Shown piece by piece: positions 977 to 31,181 of a stretch of 32,685 nt of DNA (position 1 is the stretch's first letter; each line of letters begins with the position of its first letter). A program made the translations under genes and the position numbers. Source of the stretch: a virus; the IMG/VR virus record IMGVR_UViG_3300042868_004461, positions 1-32,685 of that record, one strand, 5' to 3'. A model generated the notes under the pieces. The model was not told where the DNA came from. It saw only the letters and a program-made list of their open reading frames with translations, and ran no database searches.

Positions 977-994
977 CTCGACCAGGAGCACACA

Positions 995-1629: not shown

Positions 1630-1652
1630 TTTGTTCCACTAAGTTATGTTTA

Positions 1653-1681: not shown

Positions 1682-1721
1682 GAAAATTCAGTGAATATGA
1701 TTGAGAAGATAATTATAACAA

Positions 1722-2552: not shown

Positions 2553-2599
2553 AGTTTCAAGATTTTTGTGACTGAGCATGCCTTGCAGATAACTACTGT

Positions 2600-3478: not shown

Positions 3479-3481
3479 ATA
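3475..3481 (+). promoter_or_regulatory. T4-late-like promoter element (ATAAATA)
   Basis: ATAAATA overlaps the stop codon of the upstream gene and lies 37 bases before the ATG at 3519. AGGAGG follows at about 3507-3512, a strong ribosome binding site. Confidence 0.5.
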
Positions 3482-3518
3482 TTGTTAGTGTATACTTACT
3501 ATACCTAGGAGGATTTTT

Positions 3519-4214: not shown

Positions 4215-4920
4215 TTTGTTGCTGAGCCTGTTCTAGGCTCAGTTCTTGATCTTCTAGTTCACGAATTAGATCAGCAATCTCATCAATAAGACCTAGGTTT
4301 CGAAGTATTTTGAAAACTAGGTTTTCTACTGACCACTCCCCGGCTCGTTCTAAACCAGCTTTACGCATCTTGGTGATCTTTTCTTTAACTGCTCTAAGTT
4401 TATTAAGATCTTTACTTAATAGAGCAGTTTCGATATCGTGGATGACTGAATCTTTTTTACGTTCTACAGCACTGTCGTCTACTTCTGGTTTCGTCTTCTT
4501 TGGTTCGACCAGCCATTGACTGCGAGCTATGCTATACACACCAGTGCTGTGATGCTCTTCTTCTTGACCCTGAACATAACATTCTACAGGCAGACCTTTG
4601 ATGGTAATGTTGTGCTGTTCGGCCCAGAGTGCCTTTTTGGCATTGAATAATTCGCGACTGTTATCGTCAACTGCTCCCGACACAATTATGTGCAGATCTA
4701 GATCGCTGTGCTCGGTCCAGGTATAGTTGGCATTAGATCCTGTAATTGTGTAATCTACCACATCAAGGTCAATACCAATGAACTCTTGAAATGCATCAGC
4801 AATTTCTTTGAGTTTTTGTGCAACCGCTGGGTTGAGTGCATCACCGTCCCATATCTTGGGATTAAGACGGCGATTAACTGTGATTAGATCTGATCGTTCT
4901 TGTAATTCTCTTAGACGCAT
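4201..4920 (-). CDS. Nucleotidyltransferase-fold protein
   Basis: The 239-residue product carries the signature of the polymerase-beta-like nucleotidyltransferase fold: GS at 61-62 followed by SDLDLHI, with D73 and D75 as the metal-binding pair. A helical C-terminal half (about 145-239) is rich in Lys, Glu and Leu, with KKDSVIHDIETALLS and a final acidic helix ending in Gln-rich residues. Proteins of this kind are recurrent in T4-like phages, but their substrate is not established; the fold covers tRNA nucleotidyltransferases, MNT antitoxins and aminoglycoside-type enzymes. It is the last gene of the gp41 operon, three bases after the preceding stop. Its end overlaps the Bax-inhibitor gene. 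Confidence 0.75.
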   Translation of the reverse strand: MRLRELQERSDLITVNRRLNPKIWDGDALNPAVAQKLKEIADAFQEFIGIDLDVVDYTITGSNANYTWTEHSDLDLHIIVSGAVDDNSRELFNAKKALWAEQHNITIKGLPVECYVQGQEEEHHSTGVYSIARSQWLVEPKKTKPEVDDSAVERKKDSVIHDIETALLSKDLNKLRAVKEKITKMRKAGLERAGEWSVENLVFKILRNLGLIDEIADLIRELEDQELSLEQAQQQINPA

Positions 4921-4923
4921 TCA

Positions 4924-5160
4924 TTATTTAGCCCACATTAAGTGGTATTGTGTTAATGTACGATCATCATAAAATTCAGCTACTAAACGGCAATGCATGT
5001 CGCTTCTTTCTAGTACCATTTGACAGATATTTTCAGGCTGTGTTAACAACCAATTGGTATGATCTAATCCTATGGTCTTATGTACCTTGGGCCAATCAAT
5101 TTCAATATTTTCGCCTTCTTCAGGCAACCACTTGTACAACTCTACTTTTTTAGTCTTCAT
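4924..5160 (-). CDS. Small conserved-looking protein, unknown function
   Basis: The product is 78 residues and is not recognised. The sequence is mixed and well folded in appearance (YKWLPEEGENIEIDWPKVHK, then NICQMVLERSDMHCRLVAEF), with many aromatic residues and no signal or membrane segment. Its ATG overlaps the last 11 bases of the gp41 helicase gene, and its stop is three bases before the nucleotidyltransferase start. It is therefore translated as part of the helicase operon, probably by coupling. A link to replication is only suggested by position. Confidence 0.6.
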   Translation of the reverse strand: MKTKKVELYKWLPEEGENIEIDWPKVHKTIGLDHTNWLLTQPENICQMVLERSDMHCRLVAEFYDDRTLTQYHLMWAK

Positions 5161-6586
5161 CGCCGAACTGCTTGTTTAAAATCTCACGCATCTTACTTGA
5201 CTCAACATTGGCACGAACCTTGCCTAGACCAACACCTTGAGTCGGATCTTGTATAACACCATCTTCATCGATGCGACCTTGAATAGTACTGCGAGCCTTG
5301 ATTGACTCAATTATGCTGGAACTACCTCTACTTGTTGCACCGTTATTTTCTTGTTCATCTTCTGGTAGGTCGCTAATACGCAAACTTTCAAGATTAAACT
5401 CTAGATCAATCTTCATGCCTACACCACTCGATGAACGTGTCTTCATTAATTGTATTTGATATCGACCACGTTCACGCATAGCACGACTTGTAAAGATACC
5501 AAACACGTTATCTGCTGTTTGAATCTTAGATAGTCCACCTGAGATATGACTATGATCAAATTCAACTTCTTCCACTGCTCCACGATTTAATTGTGCGGCA
5601 GTAACAAACACGCAGTTCTTTTCCACTGCTAGATTACGCAGTTCTTCTGATACATATTTGTCTTTGATAAACAAGTCTGCTGGTGAAATCTTCTTGCTAA
5701 GTGGCATTAACAGGTCCAAATAGTCAACCAATAATACATCAACTTTCTTACCTACTTTGATTTCATATTCTTTTAGATATGCACGAATGTCATTGGCAGT
5801 CTTGCCACTTGGCATATACTTGACCTGTAGCAGGCCCGCTTTCTTGCCAATGATCTTAACCTTCATCTCAACATCGTCGATGTCTTTAAAAATGTCTTTA
5901 GTTGATGTTCCTGTTAACATTGCATCAATACGCATACTGACCAGTGCTTCTGAAAGTTCTAGTGTTAGATAAACTACATTAAGACCCATTAAGGCCCAGT
6001 TAACCCCTAGGTTAGCCAAGAACAAACTTTTACCTGCACCTGATCCACCTGCAAAGATATTCAGTTCTCCTCGATTGAACCCTCCGAACAACTTACGATC
6101 CATACAGGGCCAGCCTGTTGATACTTGACCGTTCTTGTCTTTGATGCCCATCAATCTACCACGGGGATCAGCAAAATAGTCTGTGCCCATGTCTCGAGCA
6201 AGACCAATCTGTACCGCTTCTTTGATTAATACTTCTACTGCACCATAGTCATGTTTTTCTAATAGATCAGCACTTTCAATAATGGCACGTTCCAGAGCCT
6301 TGTGTTGCGTAAACTTTTCAAATTCGTCCATGAACCATTCCATGTGACCATCTTTAAGATCCTCAGGACGTTTAAGTTCAACCCTACAGGTAGCATTGAC
6401 CATTTCATAGTCTGGCAATACGTTGTAACCTTTGGCATATTCATGAATAAATTCTGCCGCATCTTGCAATTTGCGGTCAAACAATGAATGATCAAAAATG
6501 CCTTGACAGCGAACAAATACTTCTGCATCTGCCAGCATGAGTTCAAGATATAATTTTTGTACTTCGTAGTCGTAGGTCTTTATCAT
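5150..6586 (-). CDS. 41: Replicative DNA helicase, DnaB/gp41 type
   Basis: The 478-residue protein matches T4 gp41 in length and order. It has an N-terminal helical domain (about 1-130), a linker, and a RecA-like helicase core with Walker A GGSGAGKS (180-187) and Walker B LLVDYLD around D288. A motif-3-like stretch follows (TAAQLNRGAVEE), then an arginine-rich DnaB motif 4 region with MKTRSSSGVG near residue 380. gp41 is the hexameric 5'-3' helicase that drives the replication fork and activates the primase. Its partner primase is encoded immediately upstream in a neighbouring operon. The ATG overlaps the stop of the oxygenase gene (ATGA). The C terminus (after about 400) is variable and Ser/Asn-rich. 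Confidence 0.93.
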   Translation of the reverse strand: MIKTYDYEVQKLYLELMLADAEVFVRCQGIFDHSLFDRKLQDAAEFIHEYAKGYNVLPDYEMVNATCRVELKRPEDLKDGHMEWFMDEFEKFTQHKALERAIIESADLLEKHDYGAVEVLIKEAVQIGLARDMGTDYFADPRGRLMGIKDKNGQVSTGWPCMDRKLFGGFNRGELNIFAGGSGAGKSLFLANLGVNWALMGLNVVYLTLELSEALVSMRIDAMLTGTSTKDIFKDIDDVEMKVKIIGKKAGLLQVKYMPSGKTANDIRAYLKEYEIKVGKKVDVLLVDYLDLLMPLSKKISPADLFIKDKYVSEELRNLAVEKNCVFVTAAQLNRGAVEEVEFDHSHISGGLSKIQTADNVFGIFTSRAMRERGRYQIQLMKTRSSSGVGMKIDLEFNLESLRISDLPEDEQENNGATSRGSSSIIESIKARSTIQGRIDEDGVIQDPTQGVGLGKVRANVESSKMREILNKQFGDED

Positions 6587-7200
6587 CGTATCACTTTATA
6601 ATCCATAATAATTGTTCTGCGTGGCAATGTTTTTATGGGATAAACACCGTGAAAAATATCGCCACGGAGTATTATACAACGTCCTGCCCAACTGCTGAAT
6701 GATTTGTATAATGGTTTATCGCCTTTAGTTAAAAAGGCATACATAGACCCCCATGCATTTTCTTTTGCACTAACATTTGGGTCTTGGTTTATTTCTCCAT
6801 CTAAATAGAATATCTGTGTAACACAATCGTTGTCATGTGTATGCATGCTTTGCCAGCCGCCTGCGGCATATTCCATGCTCCATGAAATAGTTGGCACAAA
6901 ATTTAGGTCAATTTTATTTCTTTTCAATCGTCGCTTGGTCCATTCGAATATACCATGTGTTGCTTCTTCCCAAGCGGGGTGTTGAACATAGTTATTAAGA
7001 AATTGTTTGTGTCTTACTGTCTGTGCAACCACAGGATCACTCCACAATGGGTACTGTCTAGCATTAAACGCCACAGTTTCGTTGCTGTATTCAGTATTGG
7101 GATTTGATTCGACCAACGGTAATAGGTCTTGATACTTGGTATATTCTGTATCAATCAACCATTGATCACCTGTCTGATATTTCTTATTATGATAAAACAT
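6583..7200 (-). CDS. 2OG-Fe(II) oxygenase-like protein leading the helicase operon
   Basis: The product is 205 residues. The metal-site pattern is MHTHDND (near 118-124) followed by a strand with FYLDG, then GRCIILRGDIFHGVYPI with the distal His, and RRTIIMDY with candidate 2-oxoglutarate-binding Arg residues. This resembles phage 2OG-Fe(II) oxygenases in which the proximal motif is written HxH. The protein is unrelated in detail to the oxygenase at 374-949. The substrate is unknown. Its placement directly before gp41, with an ATGA overlap, means it is co-transcribed with replication genes. The ATG has no Shine-Dalgarno sequence and lies seven bases after a TATAAT, so the mRNA may begin at the start codon. 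Confidence 0.7.
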   Translation of the reverse strand: MFYHNKKYQTGDQWLIDTEYTKYQDLLPLVESNPNTEYSNETVAFNARQYPLWSDPVVAQTVRHKQFLNNYVQHPAWEEATHGIFEWTKRRLKRNKIDLNFVPTISWSMEYAAGGWQSMHTHDNDCVTQIFYLDGEINQDPNVSAKENAWGSMYAFLTKGDKPLYKSFSSWAGRCIILRGDIFHGVYPIKTLPRRTIIMDYKVIR

Positions 7201-7207
7201 ATATTTT

Positions 7208-7237
7208 ATTATACACTAATTGCTAGGTGCTTTGCAA
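7208..7237 (-). promoter_or_regulatory. Sigma70-type promoter, predicted leaderless start
   Basis: On the reverse strand TTGCAA (7232-7237) and TATAAT (7208-7213) are 18 bases apart. TATAAT ends seven bases before the ATG at 7200 and overlaps the stop codon of the carbamoyltransferase gene. Transcription would start at or beside the A of the ATG. Confidence 0.6.
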
Positions 7238-8150
7238 CACCAAAGTTGTATTTCCACTCTCGTTGTTTAGTGTGATACAAGACTGCTCCGATAGAACTAG
7301 ATGGATCTCCTGGATTAGGTAAACTCCACCTGTACTTAAATGCAGGTTCCACAAATCGTTTATTAGCATCTGAATTCATAGCACAACCGCCCATGTAGAC
7401 TAGACAATCGGTATTGACTAATTTCTTAGCTTCTAGCATAACCATACGAATTTGATCTTCAAACACTCTTTGAACTGCGGCAGCAATATCGTACCTGTCT
7501 TGTTCGTTGCTAATGTCATACGGCCAATCGAGGACGCCCTTGTGCATGTTCTTACCAGAGATTAATAGTCCGCTCATGTATTTGTGAACATCATGTTTAT
7601 AACGATGTGGGTCGCCCTTCTCAGCCATTTGTTGCAATAGATATTCGTCTTGTATTGGAGTCATTCCTAACAAGTCAGTAAATGCGCTATAGAATAGCCC
7701 TAGACTATTAGGATAACTTCTGCTCCACACTTTTTTCATTTCGCCGTGTAGGCCTTGCCAAATACTTGCACATTCAAATTCACCTATGGCGTCGAGTACC
7801 ACAATAGCACAATGATTAAAAGGACTGGTATAGTAGCCTGCGGCTGCGTGGCTACCATGATGCGGTGTATAAGTGATCGGAGCATAATGTTGCGCTTTCA
7901 TATATCTACGTGGAAGTACCTTCATATCTAAGACACGATGCCACTGTCCTGCGTATGCCTGTCTTGCTTTCTTTATCCAGGGTCGTTCGTACCAAAAGAT
8001 ACGATCTGGTGCTCCAAGATGCAGGGCATCGGTAATTATTTTGCTGTCTAATTCATCCGAAGAACCCACTTGATTGGACCACAGACTGCCGTCCTTGAAT
8101 ACAGCAAGACTACTTCCATGATTAAGGGCATTTACCCCCCACATGATCAT
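7209..8150 (-). CDS. Carbamoyltransferase, Kae1-like domain only (NodU/TobZ family)
   Basis: The 313-residue product matches the N-terminal Kae1-like domain of NodU/TobZ/CmcH O-carbamoyltransferases. It has the metal-binding HxxxH at H97-H101 (PHHGSHAAAGYY), the strand VVLDAIGE with D120, the conserved SLGLFYSAFTDLLGM segment, a DIAAAVQRVFE helix, MGGCAMN, and the terminal NPGDPSSSIGAVLY. Family members of about 570 residues have a second, C-terminal domain that is absent here: the protein stops about 25 residues after the Kae1 domain. Full enzymes use carbamoyl phosphate and ATP to carbamoylate a hydroxyl of a sugar or antibiotic. It may act on a glycan or nucleotide, and the acceptor is unknown. 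It is co-transcribed with primase; its ATG overlaps the TGA of the 38-residue gene. Confidence 0.85.
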   Translation of the reverse strand: MIMWGVNALNHGSSLAVFKDGSLWSNQVGSSDELDSKIITDALHLGAPDRIFWYERPWIKKARQAYAGQWHRVLDMKVLPRRYMKAQHYAPITYTPHHGSHAAAGYYTSPFNHCAIVVLDAIGEFECASIWQGLHGEMKKVWSRSYPNSLGLFYSAFTDLLGMTPIQDEYLLQQMAEKGDPHRYKHDVHKYMSGLLISGKNMHKGVLDWPYDISNEQDRYDIAAAVQRVFEDQIRMVMLEAKKLVNTDCLVYMGGCAMNSDANKRFVEPAFKYRWSLPNPGDPSSSIGAVLYHTKQREWKYNFGVAKHLAISV

Positions 8151-8263
8151 TTGTAGATAAATGGATCACGTTTACGCAATTCTTCTAAACGTTTTTTCCA
8201 TGCCTTGCGTTCTTGATACTTGTGCCACGGATATAAAATAAAATCTAATATTTTTTTAATCAT
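8147..8263 (-). CDS. 38-residue basic protein between primase and carbamoyltransferase
   Basis: An open frame from the ATG at 8263 to the TGA at 8147 encodes MIKKILDFILYPWHKYQERK and a further 18 residues ending in RKRDPFIYK. The start overlaps the primase stop (ATGATTAA) and the stop overlaps the next ATG, the same packing as its neighbours, which argues that it is a real gene. It has an amphipathic or hydrophobic N-terminal stretch (ILDFILYPW) followed by a strongly basic helix rich in Lys, Arg and Glu. It could bind membrane or nucleic acid. The sequence looks like a small protein I associate with T4-like marine phages, but I know of no function. Confidence 0.75.
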   Translation of the reverse strand: MIKKILDFILYPWHKYQERKAWKKRLEELRKRDPFIYK

Positions 8264-9278
8264 TTTGATTCTCCAATACTGCTATCTTGTTTAGCATCTT
8301 TCTTTTTTCAATTTCAATCTTTGCAGGATTTGATGTTGCTGTTTTTATAGCATCAACAACAACAAATAGTTTGCCATATTTTTTCACAGCGTCTGCACAA
8401 TCTTTCACAGAGTCATCCCAAGTTGGAAATGCTATCGACCAGCCTAGTTCTTTAGCTTGATCTATCAGCATTGTGCCTGCTTTGTCTTGATCTGGAATCA
8501 CAATCACTTCTTTGCCTATACTGTTAATTATCCGAGCCTGTTGGTCGGAGATTTCATTAGTGAGCAAGGCCACTCCGCCGACGCTGATAGCGTCAAATGG
8601 GCCTTCTACCACAAACAGATATCTATGTGCCTCACATTGTTCGTCAACGTTGAACACAAAGAATGGATGTTGATCGGACAAATACTTGGGTTTTCCTTCT
8701 GTGACTTTACGTGCTGTGTTGCCTACAATTTTTCCAAGATATTTGAAAGCAATTATCACACGATCTGCATAGCCTGCTTCTGGACTCCAATAGAAGTGAT
8801 TGCTTAATGGATCGTAGCCTCTACCTACCACATATTCTACCACCTTGACCAACTGTTGTTCTTGAACATCAGTCAATTGAGAATCTAACCATTCAATCAA
8901 GGGTAATGCACCTTCGGGCAAGGGCTTTTCTGTAAATGTGGGTTTTTCTACAAATGCTTCTGGTTGATATTCTGCCGACTCAGTTTTCATCGCTTCAAAT
9001 ATCAACTGTTTGATGTCTTCGTCATTAGCCCCTAGCCATTGGCAAAGACTTTTGAATTTAGCAGTGATCGTCGAGCCGGGTTTCCAACCTGTGGAATACT
9101 TGCAGTTGAAACAGTTATAGACTATACTGTCTGTAATAATGATGCCACCACGCTTTCTAGTATCGTGGGCATGACCTCTATGTTGACAGCAGGGAGCGTT
9201 GAAACTGATCCAGCCGCTAGGACTGGATTTTAATTTCGAAGGAAGAAGAGTTCTAAACTTATCAAGAACAAGAGTCAT
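8256..9278 (-). CDS. 61: DNA primase, T4 gp61-like
   Basis: The product is 340 residues, the size of T4 gp61. An N-terminal zinc-binding module uses C30/C31, H33-H38 and C56-x2-C59 (YNCFNCK). The TOPRIM part of the primase core has VVEGPFDAIS (E225, G226, D229) and the second acidic motif PDQDKAG (262-268), both needed for metal-dependent RNA primer synthesis. Together with gp41 it forms the primosome. The gene is the first of an operon with the 38-residue protein and the carbamoyltransferase, and a strong promoter stands right in front of it. There is no ribosome binding site, and the ATG coincides with the predicted transcription start. Confidence 0.92.
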   Translation of the reverse strand: MTLVLDKFRTLLPSKLKSSPSGWISFNAPCCQHRGHAHDTRKRGGIIITDSIVYNCFNCKYSTGWKPGSTITAKFKSLCQWLGANDEDIKQLIFEAMKTESAEYQPEAFVEKPTFTEKPLPEGALPLIEWLDSQLTDVQEQQLVKVVEYVVGRGYDPLSNHFYWSPEAGYADRVIIAFKYLGKIVGNTARKVTEGKPKYLSDQHPFFVFNVDEQCEAHRYLFVVEGPFDAISVGGVALLTNEISDQQARIINSIGKEVIVIPDQDKAGTMLIDQAKELGWSIAFPTWDDSVKDCADAVKKYGKLFVVVDAIKTATSNPAKIEIEKRKMLNKIAVLENQND

Positions 9279-9284
9279 GTATAC

Positions 9285-9313
9285 AGTATACTATCTATAT
9301 AGTACGCTGTCAA
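9285..9313 (-). promoter_or_regulatory. Sigma70-type promoter of the primase operon, predicted leaderless start
   Basis: On the reverse strand TTGACA (9308-9313), 17 bases, then TATACT (9285-9290). Only six bases (GTATAC) separate the -10 from the ATG at 9278, so the expected transcription start falls on the start codon. Confidence 0.75.
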
Positions 9314-10103
9314 CAGTTCCTGTATTCAATAGTGCCGGAATATATTTGACTCTAAACCAATTAAATTTACCAGTGATATTTTGGTAAAGAATAGGATCTT
9401 GTGATGCTGGTATAGTTTGCAAATCTACCCAACGCTCTGGATTACCGCCAGCACTTTGACTGCCCTGGATGATGATATCACCGCTGTAATTGGTCATGTT
9501 AAATTGAAATGTGTGCAGACTCTGTGGAGTACCGTACTGGGGTTGTGCATCAATAATACCACTGATATAGTATAATGCTGTGCCAGGGTCGTAAGGTTGA
9601 TAATTTTTAAATTCTTTTATTACTAGACTATCAACTGGTTCTCCGAATACATTCCCAGTAATTTCTAAAGGACTAAATGCACCATACTGACTGTCTATAT
9701 AGAGAGGTGTTTTTGCGCTAACGGTATACGTGTCACCGTTCAACACCCGAGTTTCGGTGACAACAGAGTATTGATAAAAGCCAGGTTCTATCCCTGCTAA
9801 CTCGGTATTGGATAAAATAACATATGCCTTTCCTTCCAACACATTCTGAATTACACAATCCTTTTGCAGTATGAGTTCTTTAGATTCTCTATTAACTAGG
9901 TTAAACACTAGATATGAACCTGTTACGGCTTGGGCCTTCTGGTCAGAATTCCGTACCTGCAGATCTATTCTGTTATCGACGCCTCGATGGATTTTTAAGT
10001 TACGATTGTACACTCTACGATACCTCTCTGGTTGCCAGGCGGCCAACGTATTTGTAAATACATCTATCTTATTTGGATATAAATAAACTGAAATGAGTTG
10101 CAT
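9291..10103 (-). CDS. Beta-rich protein, possible virion or adsorption component
   Basis: The product is 270 residues and not firmly recognised. It is almost all beta strand with few charged helices. Residues 45-120 look like an Ig-like or baseplate-upper-protein-like domain (ITGSYLVF-type strands, GFYQYSVV, TPLYIDSQYG). The C-terminal 90 residues (TFQFNMTNYSGDIIIQGSQS, then WVDLQTIPASQ and FNWFRVKYIP) resemble a discoidin-like beta sandwich. Such two-domain beta proteins are often tail or adsorption parts. A GATAAATA late-type element lies 20 bases upstream, which would fit a structural gene. It interrupts the two early replication operons. The function is inference. Confidence 0.6.
   Translation of the reverse strand: MQLISVYLYPNKIDVFTNTLAAWQPERYRRVYNRNLKIHRGVDNRIDLQVRNSDQKAQAVTGSYLVFNLVNRESKELILQKDCVIQNVLEGKAYVILSNTELAGIEPGFYQYSVVTETRVLNGDTYTVSAKTPLYIDSQYGAFSPLEITGNVFGEPVDSLVIKEFKNYQPYDPGTALYYISGIIDAQPQYGTPQSLHTFQFNMTNYSGDIIIQGSQSAGGNPERWVDLQTIPASQDPILYQNITGKFNWFRVKYIPALLNTGTVDSVLYR
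10078..10085 (+). promoter_or_regulatory. Perfect T4 late promoter octamer TATAAATA
   Basis: TATAAATA on the + strand is the exact T4 late consensus and lies 47 bases before the ATG at 10133. It sits inside the 5' end of the opposing gene, so a chance match from its codons is possible. Confidence 0.45.
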
Positions 10104-10123
10104 ACACTAGCGGACCTTTACAC

Positions 10124-10131
10124 TATTTATC
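10124..10131 (-). promoter_or_regulatory. T4-late-like element GATAAATA for the beta-rich protein
   Basis: Read on the reverse strand, GATAAATA ends 20 bases before the ATG at 10103. It has the same core as the elements at 970, 18083, 25277 and 27453. Confidence 0.55.
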
Positions 10132-10132
10132 T

Positions 10133-10504
10133 ATGAGAATCACACATAACCTACAAGAAAACTTTCCTTTTATCAGTGTTGTAACCCACGTTGATCAGGA
10201 ATATGTGGGCATCATAATTAATCAAGATTCCGCTATCACTAGCATGTATGACTATGCACATATCAAAACTGAAGCAGAAAAAGCAAAATTCTTAGAACTA
10301 GGCGAAGTTTGGTGGTGGGAATCAAATAGGCAGATTCCCATTAATATATTTTTACTTAAAGAAATTTATGCTTTCCGATACACTATCAAAAACTTTTCAA
10401 CTAAAGATGTCAAGGTCATATTTGGTCCCTGTACCAGCCTCAACGACATTATTGTAAAACGTATCAAACGCAAATCAATCACATTGGTTCGCCGTGCTAC
10501 TTAA
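10133..10504 (+). CDS. Conserved-type phage protein, unknown function
   Basis: The product is 123 residues with no catalytic motif that I can identify. The N-terminal part alternates strands (NFPFISVVTHVDQEYVGIII) and is followed by a tryptophan-rich motif, GEVWWWESNRQIPINIFLL, and a basic C terminus (VKRIKRKSITLVRRAT). The character of the WWWESNRQIP motif suggests a conserved fold, and I believe similar proteins occur in T4-like marine phages without a function. It is a lone + strand gene: divergent from the beta-rich gene and ending with an eight-base overlap with the converging methyltransferase-like gene. Confidence 0.65.
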   Translation: MRITHNLQENFPFISVVTHVDQEYVGIIINQDSAITSMYDYAHIKTEAEKAKFLELGEVWWWESNRQIPINIFLLKEIYAFRYTIKNFSTKDVKVIFGPCTSLNDIIVKRIKRKSITLVRRAT

Positions 10505-11057
10505 TGCCAATAATCATTACTCGATTAAAGGCTTTGTCTTCAAATTCAAATCTTTTAATGCCATCGTAGAGCTGTTCGCTCATGGGGTACTTTAGCATTA
10601 GGTCCTTGATACTGGACATAGAATTAACATGATCCTCATCTAGCATATCGCTGGCCTGTAGACATACCACTGTGCCCGCTGGGATATTTGCGTACCATTG
10701 GCTCGAAGTCATGTGCTCAACACTGGAATTTATAATCACATCTGGTCTTGGTTTATATTCCAACAGATTGATGTCAACGGTATGTGCCTTGAATTCCCAA
10801 GCTCGATAGACCCATAGATTGTTGATGGCCTCTGCTATAGGTTCACATGCGGGATCTTGGTCAAAGCTACGGACTTCCAGCACAGGTATTTTATTTCTAG
10901 TACGGATTAAAAAATTAGCTAAGGCATACCATCCCGCTAAAATCCATATACGATAACCGTCCTCAATAGGTCTATGTTCTTCAAGTGTACGCTCTAATCG
11001 ATCCACGAGCCAAATCTTGCTCTGTATCTGAGCACTGCTAAAGGCATCAAAGTTCAT
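10497..11057 (-). CDS. Class I methyltransferase-like protein
   Basis: The product is 186 residues. RIWILAGWYALANFLIR (about 35-51) stands where the first strand and glycine loop of SAM-binding Rossmann folds occur. LEVRSFDQDP (60-69) ends in an acidic residue as in motif II, and PDVIINSSVEHM (108-119) resembles the motif IV/post-I loop. AGTVVCLQASDM follows as a further strand. The glycine loop is poor, so SAM binding is not assured. Position: last gene of the long uvsW operon, overlapping the DnaE-like gene by four bases (ATGA). The target could be nucleic acid or protein; nothing in the sequence decides. Confidence 0.6.
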   Translation of the reverse strand: MNFDAFSSAQIQSKIWLVDRLERTLEEHRPIEDGYRIWILAGWYALANFLIRTRNKIPVLEVRSFDQDPACEPIAEAINNLWVYRAWEFKAHTVDINLLEYKPRPDVIINSSVEHMTSSQWYANIPAGTVVCLQASDMLDEDHVNSMSSIKDLMLKYPMSEQLYDGIKRFEFEDKAFNRVMIIGIK

Positions 11058-11632
11058 TGATATCCATAACTGATCTGTTCACAGATTAAATTCATCTGTA
11101 CCACAATGGCCACAGCATAGGCAGTGGCATGACTTTTCTTAAAATAGTATTCATCGTTACTCGGTTTCGTCCAAACTTCTGTCATAATCGTAGTCCAGTC
11201 TTTCCCAATCAGATAACGTTTGGCTGGGCGGATCATAGCAAGGACGGCAGATAATTGTTCCACGGAAGTCGGTAGGGTCTTCCGGATTATATCTCCATGC
11301 CCGTTCAAATGAAATAACAGATTTACAAATTCGTCTTGTTGTAGTAGATCCCATAGTGGCTCCTGATTCATTAGATAAATTAGATGTTCTTCATCACGAA
11401 CACCTTTATAAATTCCAACATTGAGAAAATCTATTTTAAAATACTTTTCTTCTTCTGCCTGTTCATAGGGAAGTTGACATAGACCACTAACTGCATCTAC
11501 AGGAACAGCGTGTAGATATACACCTGTGTTATGCTTGACCAATCGTTGATTGTCTAGTCTACTGGCAGGGATGTGTTCAAACAATTTTAATGCTTGATCG
11601 CGGTCTACAAAGTCTATGTCAATATCCGGCAT
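11054..11632 (-). CDS. Miniature DnaE-like (DNA polymerase III alpha palm) protein
   Basis: The 192-residue product aligns by eye with separated pieces of the C-family polymerase palm. PDIDIDFVDRDQAL (2-15) matches the DnaE motif PDxDxDF with its two catalytic aspartates. HNTGVYLHAVPVD (34-46) matches the DnaE HAGGVVIAP region. KIDFLNV (66-72) matches KFDFLGL, which carries the third catalytic aspartate. FKKSHATAYAVAIV (164-177) matches the FNKSHAxAYA motif. Everything between these motifs is much shorter than in DnaE (over 1,100 residues), and PHP, fingers and OB domains are absent. All three aspartates are kept, so nucleotide chemistry is possible, but a structural or regulatory role is equally open. 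It overlaps both neighbours by 1-4 bases. Confidence 0.7.
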   Translation of the reverse strand: MPDIDIDFVDRDQALKLFEHIPASRLDNQRLVKHNTGVYLHAVPVDAVSGLCQLPYEQAEEEKYFKIDFLNVGIYKGVRDEEHLIYLMNQEPLWDLLQQDEFVNLLFHLNGHGDIIRKTLPTSVEQLSAVLAMIRPAKRYLIGKDWTTIMTEVWTKPSNDEYYFKKSHATAYAVAIVVQMNLICEQISYGYQ

Positions 11633-11880
11633 TAGTTCAATCTCGTGGTTTCAAACAATAGCAAAGGCAATGTATCTGCTAGAAACTGTGCATACTCTTC
11701 AGAATCTTCGCGATCATTGAACCCCGTAAATTTTACAAATACATCGTCGGAATCTTCCGCAATCACTATCTCAATGTCTATATCGTCTCTGGATATGTGT
11801 TCTTCGTTGTGTGCTAACTCTACTTCTTCGTCTTCTACAGGTGGTGCGCTTGCTTCTTCTTTTCTTTTCTTATAAATCAT
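11632..11880 (-). CDS. Small acidic protein
   Basis: The product is 82 residues and is not recognised. A short basic start (MIYKKRKEE) is followed by a very acidic stretch (VEDEEVELAHNEEHISRDD), then a predicted strand-rich part (IDIEIVIAEDSDDVFVKFTGF) and a C-terminal helix ending in LPLLLFETTRLN. Acidic phage proteins of this kind can mimic DNA or act as adaptors, but nothing specific is shown. It starts within the last four bases of the zinc-finger gene and ends with a TAATG overlap into the DnaE-like gene, so it is tightly coupled in the uvsW operon. Confidence 0.6.
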   Translation of the reverse strand: MIYKKRKEEASAPPVEDEEVELAHNEEHISRDDIDIEIVIAEDSDDVFVKFTGFNDREDSEEYAQFLADTLPLLLFETTRLN

Positions 11881-12596
11881 AATATTTTCGCCTCCTTGAT
11901 GACGTCTTTAACTAACTCTACATCTGCGGGTAAAGATTTAAAACGTCTGGACCAATAGTTAGGATCAATAATTGGACCAACTATATCTAGTTGCTCATCA
12001 TTCATACGCTTTAACATTTCCTTCCCCGACTTGCTATTTAACACTATCCACGGACTAATCAATCCTTCCTTGATATCGTGCGTAGCGCGGTTGAGATTAA
12101 CGTATTGAAAGTAGTGTTCCCAGGGGGCTGAGTTAGCATCACCCCATTCCATCATAGTTTTGATGGTTCTCTGTATTGCACCGTCTGCTGGTTCTATTTT
12201 TATCAGCTCACTGATATAGGTATCATAGAGTTCATCTCTGCACCAATGATCTAGTTTTACTCCACTCTTGACCACAAAGTCAATAAATCTCTCTGGATAG
12301 ATAGGAGCAGTGTTTACAAGAAAACTACCAAACTTTACCATGGCATTGTAGAATGAACTACCTGCAAAATCATCAAAGGTCTTGGGACTAGAACCTCGTT
12401 GTGCCAGTTCATAAAATCGTTGGAATGTTAACAGGCCTGCCTGAACATGTCTTTCATTCTTGCTCATGTGTCTACGTTTCTGTTCACAGACATGCACAGC
12501 CAAAGTTTTTTCTTTGACAAATTCTTTGCCGCAGTATTCGCACTTATAATTTAATGTCTGCAATTTGCTTCTTATCCCAACCAAGGTCCTTAGCAT
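11877..12596 (-). CDS. C2HC zinc-finger protein
   Basis: The product is 239 residues from the ATG at 12596. Near the N terminus YKCEYCGKEFVKEKTLAVHV continues with a Cys and a basic tail, giving C-x2-C-x12-H-x-C, a C2H2/C2HC-type finger that usually binds DNA or RNA. The remaining 190 residues are mainly helical (FQRFYELAQRG, SFYNAMVKFGSFLV, RFIDFVVKSGVKLDHW) and are not recognised, although similar zinc-finger proteins recur in T4-like phages. The start is uncertain: the ATG overlaps the upstream gene by 53 bases, and an in-frame TTG about 30 bases downstream would begin just before the finger. Position in the uvsW operon suggests a DNA-transaction role. Confidence 0.75.
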   Translation of the reverse strand: MLRTLVGIRSKLQTLNYKCEYCGKEFVKEKTLAVHVCEQKRRHMSKNERHVQAGLLTFQRFYELAQRGSSPKTFDDFAGSSFYNAMVKFGSFLVNTAPIYPERFIDFVVKSGVKLDHWCRDELYDTYISELIKIEPADGAIQRTIKTMMEWGDANSAPWEHYFQYVNLNRATHDIKEGLISPWIVLNSKSGKEMLKRMNDEQLDIVGPIIDPNYWSRRFKSLPADVELVKDVIKEAKIL

Positions 12597-13020
12597 ATTC
12601 TTTTATTTCTTTGTCTGTAGTTATTGCTGCTAGAGTTTCAACATCTGTCATTTTCATGTTCGGAAACAGCTCTGCTAGAAAATCTACTTTTTTATTTTTT
12701 TGTTTTTTAAGAGGAATCCATTCATGAAAATAGGTTTGACCTGTGCCTCTACTACAGGCACACAACGACTGCCAAACCAGTTTGGGATGTTTTTGAATAT
12801 TATTCCAATTTTTATTGTAGTATTCATTTACGGTCAAAACAAAATGCTCTTGAAGCGCCCGATCACTGCTTTTAACACTGCTGATATATCTATTAAGATT
12901 CCAGAAATCTCCTTTGATCTCTTTCCTTCCATCATCAGTAGCGGCATCCCATAAGTCTTTCATTCCAAGATCAACTGCTGGAATTATTTCTTTAAAAAGG
13001 TCTATGTGTTTATTTGCCAT
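12544..13020 (-). CDS. Helical protein, possibly clamp-loader small subunit (gp62-like)
   Basis: The product is 158 residues. LFKEIIPAVDLGMKDLW is followed by FWNLNRYISSVKSSDRALQE and NEYYNKNW, a layout like gp62 proteins of T4-like phages, where a conserved VNRxLS segment is followed by a helix containing an asparagine-aromatic motif. The C-terminal part has a Lys-rich linker (PLKKQKNKKVDFLAELFP) and a short helical end. gp62 would be the small clamp-loader subunit that works with gp44. No gp44 or gp45 gene is in this window, so context does not confirm the call, and the identification is tentative. Confidence 0.45.
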   Translation of the reverse strand: MANKHIDLFKEIIPAVDLGMKDLWDAATDDGRKEIKGDFWNLNRYISSVKSSDRALQEHFVLTVNEYYNKNWNNIQKHPKLVWQSLCACSRGTGQTYFHEWIPLKKQKNKKVDFLAELFPNMKMTDVETLAAITTDKEIKEYAKDLGWDKKQIADIKL

Positions 13021-13267
13021 TGTCTTTGCTCAGATGATATAATATTTTAACACGTTCTAGGGCTTTTTGTAAAGTGATATTTGTTTGAGATTCTTTAATT
13101 ATGCCTTTCCATACGGTTTCTAATTCATATTCTAGAATGACAGAGTTAGTAAATGAATCATGATTATATCCAATAATTTTTCTTTCGTCTGTGCCTAACT
13201 CTGTGGCATAGACAACTCCATCTTCATACTCGTAATTGTAAGTTGCGCCAGGAGTAAGAGAGCCCAT
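13010..13267 (-). CDS. Small conserved-type protein, unknown function
   Basis: The product is 85 residues and is not assigned. The first part is strand-rich with repeated Tyr and Glu (GATYNYEYEDGVVYATELG) and then a segment DERKIIGYNHD. The second half is helical (ETVWKGIIKESQTNITLQKALERVKILYHL). This looks like a compact alpha-beta domain. It begins with a one-base TAATG overlap with the cupin gene and its end overlaps the next ATG by 11 bases, so it belongs to the uvsW operon. I see no catalytic motif. Confidence 0.6.
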   Translation of the reverse strand: MGSLTPGATYNYEYEDGVVYATELGTDERKIIGYNHDSFTNSVILEYELETVWKGIIKESQTNITLQKALERVKILYHLSKDNGK

Positions 13268-13611
13268 TATTTTGCATATCCTACAGTTTCACGCTCAATA
13301 TCATCGTGATCAAATTCTGCCCAATAGAGCTCAAAAGCAACGCAATCAGTGACTGCTTCAAATTGATGATATTCGCCCGGTGCAACTTTTGTGTATTGCC
13401 CTGCTACTAACACTGTCTCATCAACTAGATCGTAATTGTTTTTCCACACACGAATAATCATAGTTCCTTTTTCAACAAAGAAGCCATTCCATTTATATCT
13501 GTGTTTGTGTTTAGAACATGTGCCGCCTTTTTTAGCTTCAATACGATGAAACTCTAGTACACCGTTTGCTTCTAGGAGTTCGGTCTGCCCCCATACTTTT
13601 CCTGCTTTCAT
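13267..13611 (-). CDS. Single-domain cupin protein
   Basis: The 114-residue protein has the two cupin motifs in order. Motif 1 is around 29-47 (GGTCSKHKHRYKWNGFFVEKG), with H35 and H37 as metal ligands and a Trp/Phe-rich strand where the Glu is expected. Motif 2 is around 78-90 (APGEYHQFEAVTD), with the final histidine. Cupins of this size bind a metal and often act on sugars or as sugar-phosphate isomerases; several T4-like marine phages carry one. The substrate is not shown. It is separated from the upstream gene by no spacer and shares one base with the downstream start. Confidence 0.75.
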   Translation of the reverse strand: MKAGKVWGQTELLEANGVLEFHRIEAKKGGTCSKHKHRYKWNGFFVEKGTMIIRVWKNNYDLVDETVLVAGQYTKVAPGEYHQFEAVTDCVAFELYWAEFDHDDIERETVGYAK

Positions 13612-14118
13612 TTAAATTACCTTATCTAATTGTAAAATTTCGCTCTGTCTACTGATTTCTTTAACAAAATATGCACATGGCGGACTAGGACCATCATGCA
13701 ATGGCACAGTGAGTAATTGTCCGTTTTTCATTTTAGGAAAGTACCATCTCACGTCTTGATAGATATTTACTATTTCAATGGGCATGTACTCACATTTAAA
13801 TCCATTTATAGGATTAAAAATAAATGCATCAAACCCACGTTCATTTAGGCTGGTCAAGGGCAAAACTTCAGGATCAAGTCCACAATCTCGATCTCCAACA
13901 ATCATGCACCAGTCCAGTGGCATTTGTACTTCATAGCCTCCCACACTTAATAATATAGCAGGTGAGTTAAATGATTCCAAAAATATCAACGGCATAAAAA
14001 AGAAATCTGGTTCGTTAGGATTGGAATTATCTAATACTGAAAATCTAGTGTCTTCGTCTACCTCATCTGGCAATTCGTTTAGATCAAAAGATCTATTGTT
14101 CAATGTTAATATTTTCAT
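13612..14118 (-). CDS. Conserved-type phage protein downstream of uvsW
   Basis: The product is 168 residues and its function is not known. It is beta-rich with repeated Pro and aromatic residues: FFFMPLIFLESFNSPAILL, GGYEVQMPLDWCMIVGD, EVLPLTSLNERGFDAFIFNP, and a C-terminal segment WYFPKMKNGQLLTVPLHDG ending in a helix. The even spread of hydrophobic strands suggests a folded regulatory or structural domain. I believe similar proteins sit near replication genes in T4-like phages, always without an assigned role. The ATG overlaps the uvsW stop by four bases (ATGA). Confidence 0.65.
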   Translation of the reverse strand: MKILTLNNRSFDLNELPDEVDEDTRFSVLDNSNPNEPDFFFMPLIFLESFNSPAILLSVGGYEVQMPLDWCMIVGDRDCGLDPEVLPLTSLNERGFDAFIFNPINGFKCEYMPIEIVNIYQDVRWYFPKMKNGQLLTVPLHDGPSPPCAYFVKEISRQSEILQLDKVI

Positions 14119-15569
14119 ATTGTTACCTTTGTAATTGTAAAGGGGTACTTGGCCTCTTTGTAAAATTTCTTTCGTTCAGTGAGATGTCGTTTAGAATATT
14201 TGCACTGTGAAGTGATATCCCAAATCTCTACGTGATCCTTGTCCTGCGCTTTTCTAATGCCGCGCCCAATACTTTGTATAACTCGGACAAAGCTCTTTCC
14301 GGGCTCCACAAGAACCAAATTAAAAATCCTAGGGATATTAATACCCACAGCGGCCACACCATAAGTCGCCACAATAATCTTGCCATCACTTGTTTTAATC
14401 TCGTCATATTCTTCTTTCCTGTCGTCTAGTTTCATCCCACCACTAACGAATACAGCTTCGGGAATACGTTCAATTAATTTGTTTCCAGTGTCAATACGAT
14501 TGATCAACACTAGAGTATTTCCTGTTAAAGCTAGTGATTGTATTTTATTTGCCATCCAGGTAATTCTAGAATCGTCAGTGACTAAAAATGCATATTCGTC
14601 TGCGAAACTTCTAAATTCCTGTACTTCGTTGGTTTGCAAAATGTTAATTTGCAGTTGTGCCAACACGCCCTTCTCCTGTAGGTCATGTGCCGATACCTGA
14701 TTGATAACTGGTCCTATGCTGGCAAGTATGCCTTGAAATTCCCATGCTTCTTTGGGAATAGTTCCAGTCAGCCCCCAACGAATTGCACAGTTGTTAAAGT
14801 TCTGTGTCAACAATTTAGTCAGCACTTCGGCCTTGGCCTGATGTACTTCGTCGATAATGATTGCTGATACCCCGGCAGTGAATTCTGCCAAGCTCAATGA
14901 AGCATCGTCATAACTTTTCTTGTCTAACACATTGAGACTTTGCCAAGTACAAATAGTATGTGTTTTGTTTAATTCTTTACGGTCACCGAAATATACGCCG
15001 ACATCTAGTCCAAGATTTTTGTAGTCTTCCTCAGTTTGTACAACAAGAGATTTGTTCGGAACAATAACCATCGTACGCCCATACGCCTCACAAAGATGCG
15101 ACAATGTCGCTGTAGTGATTGTTTTACCTGCACCTGTTGCTACCTCCTGTAATGATTGTGGATTGTCTAAAAACTTGTTAACAACATCGTATTGATAGTC
15201 TCTAAGTATAATAGGCTTGCCTGCATCAGGATGACCTTTAGGCCATGTCTTGCCTTTGTCTGCCCAGTAGTTTTCAGTGACTGGTTCAAATTCTATTTTA
15301 CTGTGCTGTCGCAGATCTTCGATATCAATCTCGTAGCCAGCCTCTTCTATGATAGGTAGTATGATATCCAAGTGTGCAAGATAACCAGTGCCACCAATGC
15401 TAAAATAAGTCTTAGTCCCATCCCAGCGGCCTAATTTATATGCTGGCATATGACGTGCATATGGTAAATCAAATTTTAGTTTGTTAACAATTTTTCTTCG
15501 TGTTTCAACACTAAGACCTTCAACCTTAATGTTAACTTCATCTCGAATTACTAATTTACAAACTGACAA
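14115..15569 (-). CDS. uvsW: UvsW-type DNA/RNA helicase
   Basis: The product is 484 residues, close to T4 UvsW. An N-terminal DNA-binding domain (about 1-95) includes PYARHMPAYKLGRWDGTKTY. Superfamily 2 motifs follow: Q-region ILRDYQYD, motif I VATGAGKT (143-150), motif II DEVH (240-243), motif III LTGT (267-270), and motif VI QSIGRGIRKA near residue 445. UvsW unwinds branched DNA and R-loops, and in T4 it shifts replication from origin-dependent to recombination-dependent initiation. The gene is second in its operon, overlapping the lead gene by 14 bases. Its recombination partners UvsX and UvsY lie on the far side of the sugar island. Confidence 0.93.
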   Translation of the reverse strand: MSVCKLVIRDEVNIKVEGLSVETRRKIVNKLKFDLPYARHMPAYKLGRWDGTKTYFSIGGTGYLAHLDIILPIIEEAGYEIDIEDLRQHSKIEFEPVTENYWADKGKTWPKGHPDAGKPIILRDYQYDVVNKFLDNPQSLQEVATGAGKTITTATLSHLCEAYGRTMVIVPNKSLVVQTEEDYKNLGLDVGVYFGDRKELNKTHTICTWQSLNVLDKKSYDDASLSLAEFTAGVSAIIIDEVHQAKAEVLTKLLTQNFNNCAIRWGLTGTIPKEAWEFQGILASIGPVINQVSAHDLQEKGVLAQLQINILQTNEVQEFRSFADEYAFLVTDDSRITWMANKIQSLALTGNTLVLINRIDTGNKLIERIPEAVFVSGGMKLDDRKEEYDEIKTSDGKIIVATYGVAAVGINIPRIFNLVLVEPGKSFVRVIQSIGRGIRKAQDKDHVEIWDITSQCKYSKRHLTERKKFYKEAKYPFTITKVTI

Positions 15570-16752
15570 TTTTCTGTTTCCTTATAGGAGTAGGCTTAAT
15601 TTCTCCCAAATAACACACACACGGATGAGCAGCTAACCAACTCGATATAGTGGGTTCGTTAATAGGTGTATAGCTATTTGTAATAACTATTTTAACATCA
15701 ATATTGTCTTTAAACAACCACTTAGGAGGTTTATGAAGAAATATTAATATCTTTCCGCCTTCTACTTTTCCACCTAGATTGTTGTCTTTAACCCATTCAT
15801 TTAGTTTTGATTTTTTTTCAATTGGATCTCTAAAACAGACTTTTATTTCCGATCTAGGAACGCCTGCAATGTCAGCTGATCCAACAAATTTTTCAAGCCA
15901 TGCAACAACGTCTTGAGTATTACGATCAACTAGAATGCAGGCAACTCCGTTTATTTCTTTGTATAAGTTGAAAAAATCAGAGTTAACTTTTAACCAAAAA
16001 TACTTGGAAGTTTCTTGGCAAATTGTCTCTACATGAGTCACCGGTGATCGATTTAACTGTATCGGATAGCCCATGGACTTTGCCAGAAACAAATCGTGAT
16101 TAATGTTGTCAGTTCGATGTGATTGATAAAAATTTAATGCATCTTCGGAAGCGTTGATTAGCACAACACTATTATTGACTAGTTCTGCACGGGGTATAAT
16201 TTGCTCTTGTTGATCCCATATTTCTGCAACAGTATCAACCAATGTCAAGAATGATTCGTCAAGCTCGAATTCGTGTTTACGTAGAAATTCTTCGAGATGT
16301 ATTACATTAAATTTGCAAACATCTAACACTCTAAGTTTTCGATCACTATCCCATTGACTAGCGGCATATCCTTGACTTTCTGTGTCAAACTCTTTATCGA
16401 ATGTGTCTTTAAGAAGATATGGAAATTTTAGACAAATATTAATTTCACCGTCTTCGGTTTCTTCTACAAATGCCCGTTTAGACAAATCTAATTTTCTAAA
16501 TGAATTTTTCCACACAGGAGCATCAACAAGTGTACCGTAATCAATACCTAATTGTGTTGCATGAGATTTGTATTTTGTTAGAATTTTCAGTAAAAAATTC
16601 CCCTGATTTACAGTCAGTTGATTTCCTAAAGATATCTGATTATAAAAGCTGTGAATAGCTGAGGTATCTTGAGCCTGCAGAATTTCTACATCTAAAAAAG
16701 TGTGATCATAGAATTCAACAAATAAATCTTCAACGTAAGAGAATTTCGACAT
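15556..16752 (-). CDS. Unrecognised 398-residue protein leading the uvsW operon
   Basis: I do not recognise a family. An N-terminal 100 residues are helical (NQLTVNQGNFLLKILTKYK), the middle (about 120-200) is a mixed domain rich in acidic residues, and the C-terminal half alternates strands and helices (VNNSVVLINASED, GVACILVDRN, GKILIFLHKPPKWLF, DVKIVITNSY, HPCVCYLGEI). That rhythm could be a Rossmann- or degenerate helicase-like fold without Walker motifs. Position as first gene before uvsW, and a strong promoter directly at its ATG, point to an early role in DNA transactions. The ATG at 16752 has no Shine-Dalgarno sequence; the predicted transcription start coincides with it. Confidence 0.75.
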   Translation of the reverse strand: MSKFSYVEDLFVEFYDHTFLDVEILQAQDTSAIHSFYNQISLGNQLTVNQGNFLLKILTKYKSHATQLGIDYGTLVDAPVWKNSFRKLDLSKRAFVEETEDGEINICLKFPYLLKDTFDKEFDTESQGYAASQWDSDRKLRVLDVCKFNVIHLEEFLRKHEFELDESFLTLVDTVAEIWDQQEQIIPRAELVNNSVVLINASEDALNFYQSHRTDNINHDLFLAKSMGYPIQLNRSPVTHVETICQETSKYFWLKVNSDFFNLYKEINGVACILVDRNTQDVVAWLEKFVGSADIAGVPRSEIKVCFRDPIEKKSKLNEWVKDNNLGGKVEGGKILIFLHKPPKWLFKDNIDVKIVITNSYTPINEPTISSWLAAHPCVCYLGEIKPTPIRKQKIVSL

Positions 16753-16758
16753 ACTAAT

Positions 16759-16787
16759 ACTATACTGTATTTTTAGGTGAAAGTCAA
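16759..16787 (-). promoter_or_regulatory. Sigma70-type promoter of the uvsW operon, predicted leaderless start
   Basis: On the reverse strand TTGACT (16782-16787), 17 bases, then TATAGT (16759-16764). Six bases (ATTAGT) separate it from the ATG at 16752, the same geometry as at the primase gene. It would drive about 6.2 kb and eleven genes down to 10497. Confidence 0.75.
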
Positions 16788-16793
16788 TGATTT

Positions 16794-17633
16794 TTAATAA
16801 TTTTTTAGGTTGGCTGCAAGCCGTTGTATGGGCAAGCCTTTTGATATTTCATCCACGGTCCATTCAGTGTGACATAATTTTAAAAACCACTCGTCTCTAT
16901 CTCGCAGTGTTGGATTGTTAATATTCTCAATCTGTTCACTGACTGGAAAAGCCAGGCTCGAACTATCGCAAATTACCGGAATTCCATTAATTGCTGCTTG
17001 AACAGCAGGGCCACTATTGTGATTAATCACACAATGATAATTGTAGTCAATGTCAAATGAATCATAACTGTTTGGAATTTTTTTTGGCTGTTCAACTTGA
17101 ACTCCGGTCATGTTTAATGTAAACGGGGATCTAGGGTGTGGTCTAATTATTATGTCTTTTTCGGTAAATTTCCTAATTTCTGCAACCTTTCTTTTTGCCC
17201 ATTCTGCCATGGAAGGTTGCCCTTCCCATTGAAGGCTGCGTTCATGTTGACAGGCAATTAAAACTTTATTATTTCTTTTTTGATTTAACGGCTTTAGATT
17301 TAGTCCCAAGACAGTTGGTCTAGATTTGTCAAGATTTTCACTATTTCCAAAAATTCCCAGGCCATGAATGTGGTCTAAACTGATGCGCCAGGTACTGCCT
17401 CTTACAAGATTGCCAACTTCAATTATCATGACTGGTTTTCCTTTAGCCCGACATTGATTATAGATCAGTTGATTCCGTTGCATACGACCTTGCCACAAAA
17501 CTGACCAGATGACATCAACGTCTTGACCAGAATCTACCACCGAAAAACCGGTATTTTTGATACCTTGTTCCAAGGCTGCAAATATAGGCGGACTGTTAAG
17601 TGCTCCGTTGTCTTTATGAATTTTGAATCGCAT
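16794..17633 (-). CDS. KpsC/KpsS-like putative glycosyltransferase, copy 1
   Basis: The product is 279 residues. The C-terminal half has IIIRPHPR (about 161-168), CVINHNSGPAVQAAINGIPV (about 200-220) and a conserved end with NNPTLRDRDEWFLKLCHTEW. An HP pair followed by an NS...A...G.P loop is the pattern of capsule-synthesis GT-B proteins such as the KpsC/KpsS beta-Kdo transferases. Two further copies lie at 20612-21547 and 22994-23797. It likely transfers a sugar to a glycan in the cytoplasm; the acceptor is unknown. It is the last - strand gene before the uvsW promoter region and has no close upstream partner. No Shine-Dalgarno sequence is seen. Confidence 0.65.
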   Translation of the reverse strand: MRFKIHKDNGALNSPPIFAALEQGIKNTGFSVVDSGQDVDVIWSVLWQGRMQRNQLIYNQCRAKGKPVMIIEVGNLVRGSTWRISLDHIHGLGIFGNSENLDKSRPTVLGLNLKPLNQKRNNKVLIACQHERSLQWEGQPSMAEWAKRKVAEIRKFTEKDIIIRPHPRSPFTLNMTGVQVEQPKKIPNSYDSFDIDYNYHCVINHNSGPAVQAAINGIPVICDSSSLAFPVSEQIENINNPTLRDRDEWFLKLCHTEWTVDEISKGLPIQRLAANLKNY

Positions 17634-17640
17634 TAGGTTA

Positions 17641-17647
17641 ATAAATA
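17641..17647 (+). promoter_or_regulatory. T4-late-like promoter element in a divergent region
   Basis: ATAAATA lies 22 bases before the ATG at 17670. The segment 17641-17661 is near-palindromic, so TAAATA also reads towards the - strand gene that starts at 17633. Confidence 0.45.
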
Positions 17648-17669
17648 TATGTGTATTTAATGAATAACA

Positions 17670-18062
17670 ATGACAAAATTTTCAAAACGAATGAAGAAAG
17701 CTCACCGTAAAGCACGAAATGTGCTGGCCGTGGGCACAGCTTTGGGCAATCTAGAGGACCTATTAGAAACCTTTGACACGGTGTTTGTGGTCAATGGCAC
17801 ACTGCCACGTATTCAAAAAAGAAATGTGGTATACAGAGAAAATTTCGATAATATCCATTTGGTGTCTGATGTGGATTTAATAATTATTGATTTTTTACAT
17901 GAAAAATTTATACCTGAACTTCAACAGATATGGCGCCGAACACAACCCACAATCATAATTGAAGGACCTGAACTGATATCTAAAGAATGTCAAAAATTAT
18001 TGAAATCAGATCACTACGCCATTAGAGAAGTTGCTAAAAATTACTACTTGTGGAAGAAATAA
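17670..18062 (+). CDS. Small Rossmann-like protein of unknown function
   Basis: The product is 130 residues. A very basic N terminus (SKRMKKAHRKARN) precedes NVLAVGTALGNLEDLLETF, which resembles a short nucleotide-binding strand-loop. Then come FDTVFVVNG and a strand DVDLIIIDFLHE, typical of a Rossmann core in which acidic residues follow the strand. PTIIIEGPELIS may be another strand-loop. It could be a cut-down methyltransferase-like domain, but no SAM motif is convincing. It sits alone between the KpsC-like gene and the GDP-mannose dehydratase, on the late-type + strand side of the island. Confidence 0.55.
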   Translation: MTKFSKRMKKAHRKARNVLAVGTALGNLEDLLETFDTVFVVNGTLPRIQKRNVVYRENFDNIHLVSDVDLIIIDFLHEKFIPELQQIWRRTQPTIIIEGPELISKECQKLLKSDHYAIREVAKNYYLWKK

Positions 18063-31157: not shown

Positions 31158-31181
31158 AGAGTGTGAGTTGCCCCACACTCT
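31158..31181 (-). terminator. Hairpin after gp32, possible attenuator
   Basis: AGAGTGTG and CACACTCT form a perfect 8-bp stem with an 8-base loop in the gap between gp32 and the small gene. On the reverse strand it is followed by CTTTCATTT, an imperfect T-rich tail, so partial termination or mRNA end protection is more likely than full termination. That would give more gp32 than UvsX. Confidence 0.55.

Follow-up and report, generated by a model that had tools for sequence, protein, structure and literature searches.

A candidate sigma70-type promoter set directly on the start codon of a 398-aa protein gene, and a predicted class of leaderless genes in uncultured T4-like jumbo phages

Gene content and promoters of the window

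The stretch of DNA analysed here (the window, a virus record of 32.7 kb) carries a T4-like gene set, including UvsW, UvsX, UvsY, a ssDNA-binding protein, a DnaB-type helicase, a primase and a piece of DNA polymerase. In IMG/VR the contigs closest to it measure up to 353 kb, and the window is therefore read as most probably a piece of a jumbo phage genome. Genome-contig matches were also considered as a guide to the host, but the matches were just phage-like contigs binned in a Neomarinimicrobiota MAG and a weak one to Novosphingobium, and neither assignment was accepted. Between the uvsX and ssDNA-binding protein genes lies a hairpin of 10 pairs (AGAGTGTG..CACACTCT, window 31158-31181) that forms a terminator-like stem on both strands.

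The preliminary description of this DNA had pointed to a strong promoter on the minus strand, TTGACT-17-TATAGT, ending six bases before an ATG at 16752 with no Shine-Dalgarno (SD) sequence, at the head of a 6-kb uvsW operon. Re-reading of the sequence confirms this arrangement, in which the -10 box fills the place that a SD would occupy. The co-oriented run extends from 16752 to 10497 (6.26 kb, ten ORFs), in agreement with the size given. The operon can keep its name; its first gene, on the other hand, encodes a 398-aa protein, and uvsW (phrog_16) comes second. The features are as follows.

16782-16787, minus strand: -35 hexamer TTGACT; TTGAC or TTGAT is kept in most orthologous loci
16759-16764, minus strand: -10 hexamer TATAGT after a 17-nt spacer (16781-16765); TATAAT, TATAGT or TAAAAT across 20 of 20 orthologous loci
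16753-16758, minus strand: discriminator ATTAGT, 6 nt, without SD; 5-6 nt long in all orthologues
16750-16752, minus strand: ATG, whose A (16752) is the predicted transcription start, judged by discriminator geometry and by the +1 A preference in the relatives' leadered promoters
15556-16752, minus strand: 398-aa protein gene, operon head, predicted leaderless; conserved start; no family in PHROG and Pfam searches
14115-15569, minus strand: uvsW-like SF2 helicase gene, second in the operon, TTG start with AAGGA upstream (phrog_16, E 4e-80; ResIII/DEAD)
10497-14118, minus strand: eight remaining co-oriented operon genes, including the DNA polymerase piece at 11054-11632

The 5′ end of uvsW overlaps the 3′ end of the 398-aa gene. 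The DNA polymerase piece comprises 192 aa (phrog_11778, E 3e-65); the polymerase seems to be divided over separate genes. None of 50,697 cultured phage records matches the 398-aa gene, and a structure model of its product (mean pLDDT 74, pTM 0.41) gave no confident match against the PDB; SF2 helicases were the best structural matches, but with a TM of 0.25 this assignment was not accepted.

The second site, at the primase gene, had been said to show the same six-base gap, and it does so (TATACT-GTATAC-ATG 9278).

9308-9313, minus strand: primase -35 hexamer TTGACA, located within the 3′ end of the preceding gene 9291-10103
9285-9290, minus strand: primase -10 hexamer TATACT after a 17-nt spacer; spacing conserved in 43 of 46 orthologues
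9279-9284, minus strand: primase discriminator GTATAC, 6 nt, without SD; invariant in length, variable in sequence
8256-9278, minus strand: DNA primase gene, ATG at 9278, predicted leaderless (phrog_47, E 4e-25; Toprim_2)

The promoter at 16752 has the features of a sigma70 promoter, namely a TTGACA-like -35, a spacer of 17 ± 1, a TATAAT-like -10 and a purine at +1, and it matches the sigma70 consensus at 10 of 12 positions. Such a score says little by itself, since sites with at least 9 of 12 matches number 60 in window positions 1-18000 against 52 ± 6 in shuffled sequence. This near-chance count is what speaks for one alternative, that promoter look-alikes happen to lie near ATGs in AT-rich DNA. 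When TTGAC, a 17-nt spacer and at least 10 of 12 matches are demanded, just four sites are left in the same 18 kb, and two of them (those of the 16752 gene and the primase) have an ATG after a gap of exactly 6 nt. This 6-nt distance, found at both 16752 and 9278, agrees with the 6-7 nt or so between the -10 and the start of leaderless (TA-led) genes. It is position and conservation, not consensus score, by which we credit the 16752 site as a putative real promoter.

Three further promoters of the window, one of them absent from the preliminary description (ATG 7200), are listed below with their genes, two serving as leadered contrasts.

7201-7237, minus strand: third candidate, TTGCAA-18-TATAAT-7 nt-ATG 7200
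6583-7200, minus strand: 2OG-Fe(II) oxygenase-like gene, possibly leaderless (phrog_81, E 9e-5; Pfam 2OG-FeII_Oxy_5 below cut-off)
3468-3518, plus strand: leadered contrast, TTGACA-17-TATACT, serving the Bax1-I gene 3519-4214 through a 22-nt leader with AGGAGG
1630-1681, minus strand: leadered contrast, TTGACA-17-TATAAT, 23 nt to ATG 1629 (gene 1195-1629)

For the 7200 candidate, a search for independent conservation yielded near-identical (99%) copies only, and the site could therefore be due to chance. Orthologues of the Bax1-I gene are SD-led, and the distance of their promoter is variable or the promoter is gone. The product of this gene is a Bax1-I/BI-1 membrane protein (Pfam E 8e-52), yet it has no PHROG family; identity is 73-97% in the best 80 of at least 597 matching viral stretches.

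Conservation of the gap and of the start codon

For the primase, 80 loci of 40-96% identity were reduced to 46 nonredundant upstream regions. Exactly 6 nt separate the -10 from the start codon in 43 of these; of the exceptions, L080 has no aligned start; L094 and L117 each have their nearest ATG about 7 nt past TATACT. Nearly all primases start with ATG, GTG being used in L095 and in the cultured phage PA5oct. Over the 43 aligned upstream regions, information content reaches 1.85 bits per base in the -35, 1.73 in the -10 and 1.95 in the start codon, compared with 0.56 in the discriminator and 0.59 in the far upstream background. Because the discriminator is as poor in information as the far upstream sequence, what is kept at the primase is the length of the discriminator, not its sequence. 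An inverted repeat (ATACTATA-nn-GATAGTAT) covers the spacer and -10 of the primase promoter in near relatives (window 9285-9307; L041-L093), and this is possibly an operator; in distant relatives the repeat is absent and the 6-nt gap is retained.

For the 398-aa gene, 20 loci that include the full N-terminus, at 39-74% identity, came out of a scan of IMG/VR viral contigs. The start codon is ATG in all 20, and in all 20 the -10 ends 5-6 nt before it, while the hexamers (TTGACT/TATAGT, TTGATT/TATAAT, TTGACA/TATAAT, TTGACC/TATAAT, TTGCTC-18-TAAAAT) and the discriminators (ATTAGT, ATAACA, ATAAAA, ATATT, TAACAC) differ among loci.

The preliminary description had named translation from a downstream start with a ribosome binding site as a finding that would count against it. 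In this account the protein is made from a downstream in-frame codon with its own SD, and the upstream ATG has been wrongly annotated as the start. Nothing turned up in favour of this account. It is disfavoured because M1 is gap-free in the alignment of 13 orthologues of the 398-aa protein (39-74% identity), where Y6, E8 and D9 are aligned as well, and because codons 2-20 differ from those of near relatives by 0-1 second-position and 9-10 third-position changes. For the primase, the matches in most of the 80 loci extend back to residue 1. We regard a downstream start as very improbable.

Another possibility is that the main mRNA is a leadered read-through transcript, or comes from some other promoter, so that the promoter at the ATG would be minor and translation would begin internally without a SD. 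The upstream gene 16794-17633 is co-oriented with the 398-aa gene, and the 41-nt gap between them showed no terminator; for these reasons, mRNAs with a leader but no SD may indeed also be present in the window. As the main route of expression, read-through leaves the constant 6-nt gap between -10 and ATG amid diverging sequences unexplained, and likewise the separate mode of promoter-ATG distances described below. In the relative G015, uvsW itself has the leaderless layout (TTGACT-17-TATAAT-GTTAAT-ATG), and a hairpin that resembles a terminator and has a T run (CAGACACC...GGTGTCTGTCTTTTT) lies immediately upstream of this promoter, arguing against read-through there. We consider the read-through account unlikely. 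In the same genome, a later operon gene, orthologous to 13612-14118, has a leaderless-type promoter of its own.

A putative leaderless mode of promoter spacing in the jumbo relatives

Four relatives of 347-358 kb contain 413 strong sigma70-type sites, for which the first ATG opening an ORF of at least 50 codons was taken as the gene start. The distances from strong promoter to gene start fall into two modes, as seen in G001 (353 kb). Over the four genomes, the first ATG lies 5, 6 or 7 nt past the -10 in 8, 26 and 5 cases (39 genes), only 7 genes fall at 8-18 nt, and a broad mode at 19-41 nt holds 143 genes. A SD of at least 4 nt precedes 113 of the 143 leadered genes (79%) and 1 of the 39 leaderless ones (Fisher 2e-19); with slightly different windows the figures are 131 of 174 and 0 of 39. 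Thus about one promoter-led gene in five in this uncultured group would be leaderless, as predicted from promoter spacing.

These counts bear on the chance account introduced above. Against the 39 genes observed at 5-7 nt, the background expectation is 4.8, and scrambled-consensus decoys gave at most four such genes, save for one decoy that overlaps the true consensus. In 13 further records the pattern likewise exceeds its reversed control. The arrangement is moreover conserved in orthologues and absent from cultured control phages of lower GC. As a general account, chance is ruled out by the decoys, the background rates and the sharing among orthologues, and for the 16752 promoter we find it scarcely credible.

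The spacing also points to where transcription begins. The sum of spacer and gap is 23 in 28 of the 39 leaderless genes, including four of 18+5 and one of 16+7, so that the two lengths compensate each other. The seventh base past the -10 is an A at 210 of the 413 strong sites, and among leadered promoters ATA is the commonest triplet at this place (47 of 143). This seventh base is the expected +1, and leaderless genes have their ATG exactly there. The predicted start position could be off by 1-2 nt.

A further 29 strong promoters in G001, G014, G015 and G016 (e.g., G001 316799, minus strand) are followed at 5-7 nt by an ATG whose ORF is a mini-ORF of just 2-42 codons; several of these mini-ORFs share an ATGA with the next gene (gap -4) or lie flush against it. 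The layout looks as if leaderless mini-ORFs delivered ribosomes to the main gene, and the excess of mini-ORFs may in part be a mere preference for AT at +1.

Sharing was assessed over six relatives and the window. Among 151 orthologue pairs of leaderless genes, 81 have leaderless spacing in common, compared with 15 of 360 for leadered ones (Fisher 2e-36, indicative only, as the pairs are non-independent). Since the other 46% of leaderless-gene pairs differ in spacing, the layout is apparently gained and lost over time. Some relatives show the class only weakly (G018, P 0.03; G016, P 1e-3). The primase has leaderless spacing in 7 of 7 genomes; other shared leaderless genes are the 398-aa gene and those for a DnaJ protein (Pfam DnaJ + DnaJ_C), a radical-SAM protein with a QueE-like N-terminus and a Rv2179c/RNase-T-like exonuclease, and the DnaB-type helicase is leaderless in some genomes.

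A gene for the ribosomal protein bS21 occurs in four of the six jumbo relatives (L316, which is G001 33352-33510, and L315, L317, L318), and in G001 it lies directly upstream of the leaderless exonuclease gene. A requirement for bS21 was rejected, since G015 shows a clear leaderless class without encoding this protein. A search for a phage-encoded initiation factor 3 found none.

Outside this group, T4, RaK2 and ICP1 were run through the same script and pattern counts, and showed no leaderless class and at most chance numbers; pattern counts for Phosso, Atu_ph07 and Vibrio 2.275.O were at most those of chance. The idea of a general feature of large phages was dropped, all six being without the class. 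In PA5oct, where no genome-wide class was evident either, the homologous primase is preceded by TTGACA-17-TATAAT-GTGCGC-GTG. Its annotated start (NC_071039 145884) directly follows TATAAT, six bases too early, and the conserved primase geometry favours the GTG six bases downstream as the true, presumably leaderless, start. PA5oct thus resembles the present lineage in having TTGACA-17-TATAAT and 6 nt before the start codon of the primase, and differs in the GTG start and in lacking an evident genome-wide class.

Predicted leaderless expression and its possible meaning for the lineage

Taken together, we hold it highly probable that the 16752 site is a sigma70-type promoter firing at the A of the start codon, that the 398-aa gene and the primase are leaderless, and that they belong to a lineage-wide class. 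The claim that the start point falls on the ATG is supported by comparison, through the 5-6 nt in the 398-aa loci, the 43 of 46 primase regions, the SD-less mode and the A at +1. In the proposed mechanism, a host-type sigma70 RNA polymerase, as suggested by the consensus, would bind the -35 and -10, and transcription would begin at the A right after the 6-nt gap, as geometry and the +1 preference of leadered promoters suggest. The 5′-terminal AUG would then be bound directly by 70S ribosomes, as in other leaderless mRNAs (PMC9031893), and the downstream operon genes would probably start at their own SD or by overlap coupling.

Leaderless genes have been surveyed in bacteria and are few in most proteobacteria (PMC3160421). 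In Deinococcus-Thermus, a -10 motif 6-7 bp before the ORF is a described mode (PMC12340547). The genes studied here resemble these TA-led genes in having TANNNT directly before the ATG, no SD and an RNA expected to start from the A of the AUG, and in coexisting with SD-led genes. In D. radiodurans, nearly one-third of genes are of this kind, described as having a -10 motif, whereas the present promoters have a full -35 with 17-nt spacing and belong to phages, where they serve a limited number of shared genes. In Sinorhizobium meliloti, 171 of 17,001 TSS are leaderless (PMC3616915); there too the start on the first base of the AUG occurs alongside SD-led mRNAs, measured in that case and predicted in ours. 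The sinorhizobial jumbo phage Phosso, in contrast, has a SD-led primase and no leaderless class.

Among phages, the lambda cI mRNA is leaderless and starts at the AUG (PMC9031893, PMC3160421), but in that case one repressor gene of a temperate phage is concerned, whereas here the predicted class is conserved at replication genes of lytic jumbo phages. For the Thermus phage phiYS40, leaderless middle and late mRNAs and changes in IF2/IF3 have been reported (Sevostyanova 2007, summarised in PMC3594737). As far as that summary goes, phiYS40 likewise is large and lytic and makes many leaderless transcripts, the present ones being predicted from sequence. Most of its middle and late mRNAs are leaderless, compared with about 20% of promoter-led genes here, which have sigma70-type promoters in T4-like phages; a majority of leaderless transcripts was not found, the four genomes having 39 leaderless against 143 leadered genes. 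The AR9 paper states that phage transcripts are often leaderless, yet the UTRs of AR9 itself are 26-491 nt long (PMC5312081). No literature on leaderless promoters in this phage group was found in a search that covered few subscription papers. Leaderless genes are of a known kind, and their lineage-wide, gene-specific conservation is new as far as checked.

Leaderless translation in phages has mostly been known from single genes, such as lambda cI, or from Thermus phages. The present comparison indicates a conserved leaderless set, with the primase foremost, in abundant uncultured giant T4-like phages. The comparison gives single-base predictions of start sites and corrects the annotation of gene starts, including that of the cultured PA5oct. 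Such phages would also offer a natural setting for competition, within one infected cell, between leadered and leaderless mRNAs from one type of promoter, and therefore why a gene stays leaderless becomes a testable question. One speculative reading, to which we give a small chance, is that a single promoter type serves two translation regimes, the primase and a few replication and repair genes being kept leaderless so as to remain expressed when SD-dependent initiation is impaired or altered, as a selected switch and not only a compact layout. If this were true, leaderlessness would be a selected regulatory switch in a lineage some members of which also encode bS21.
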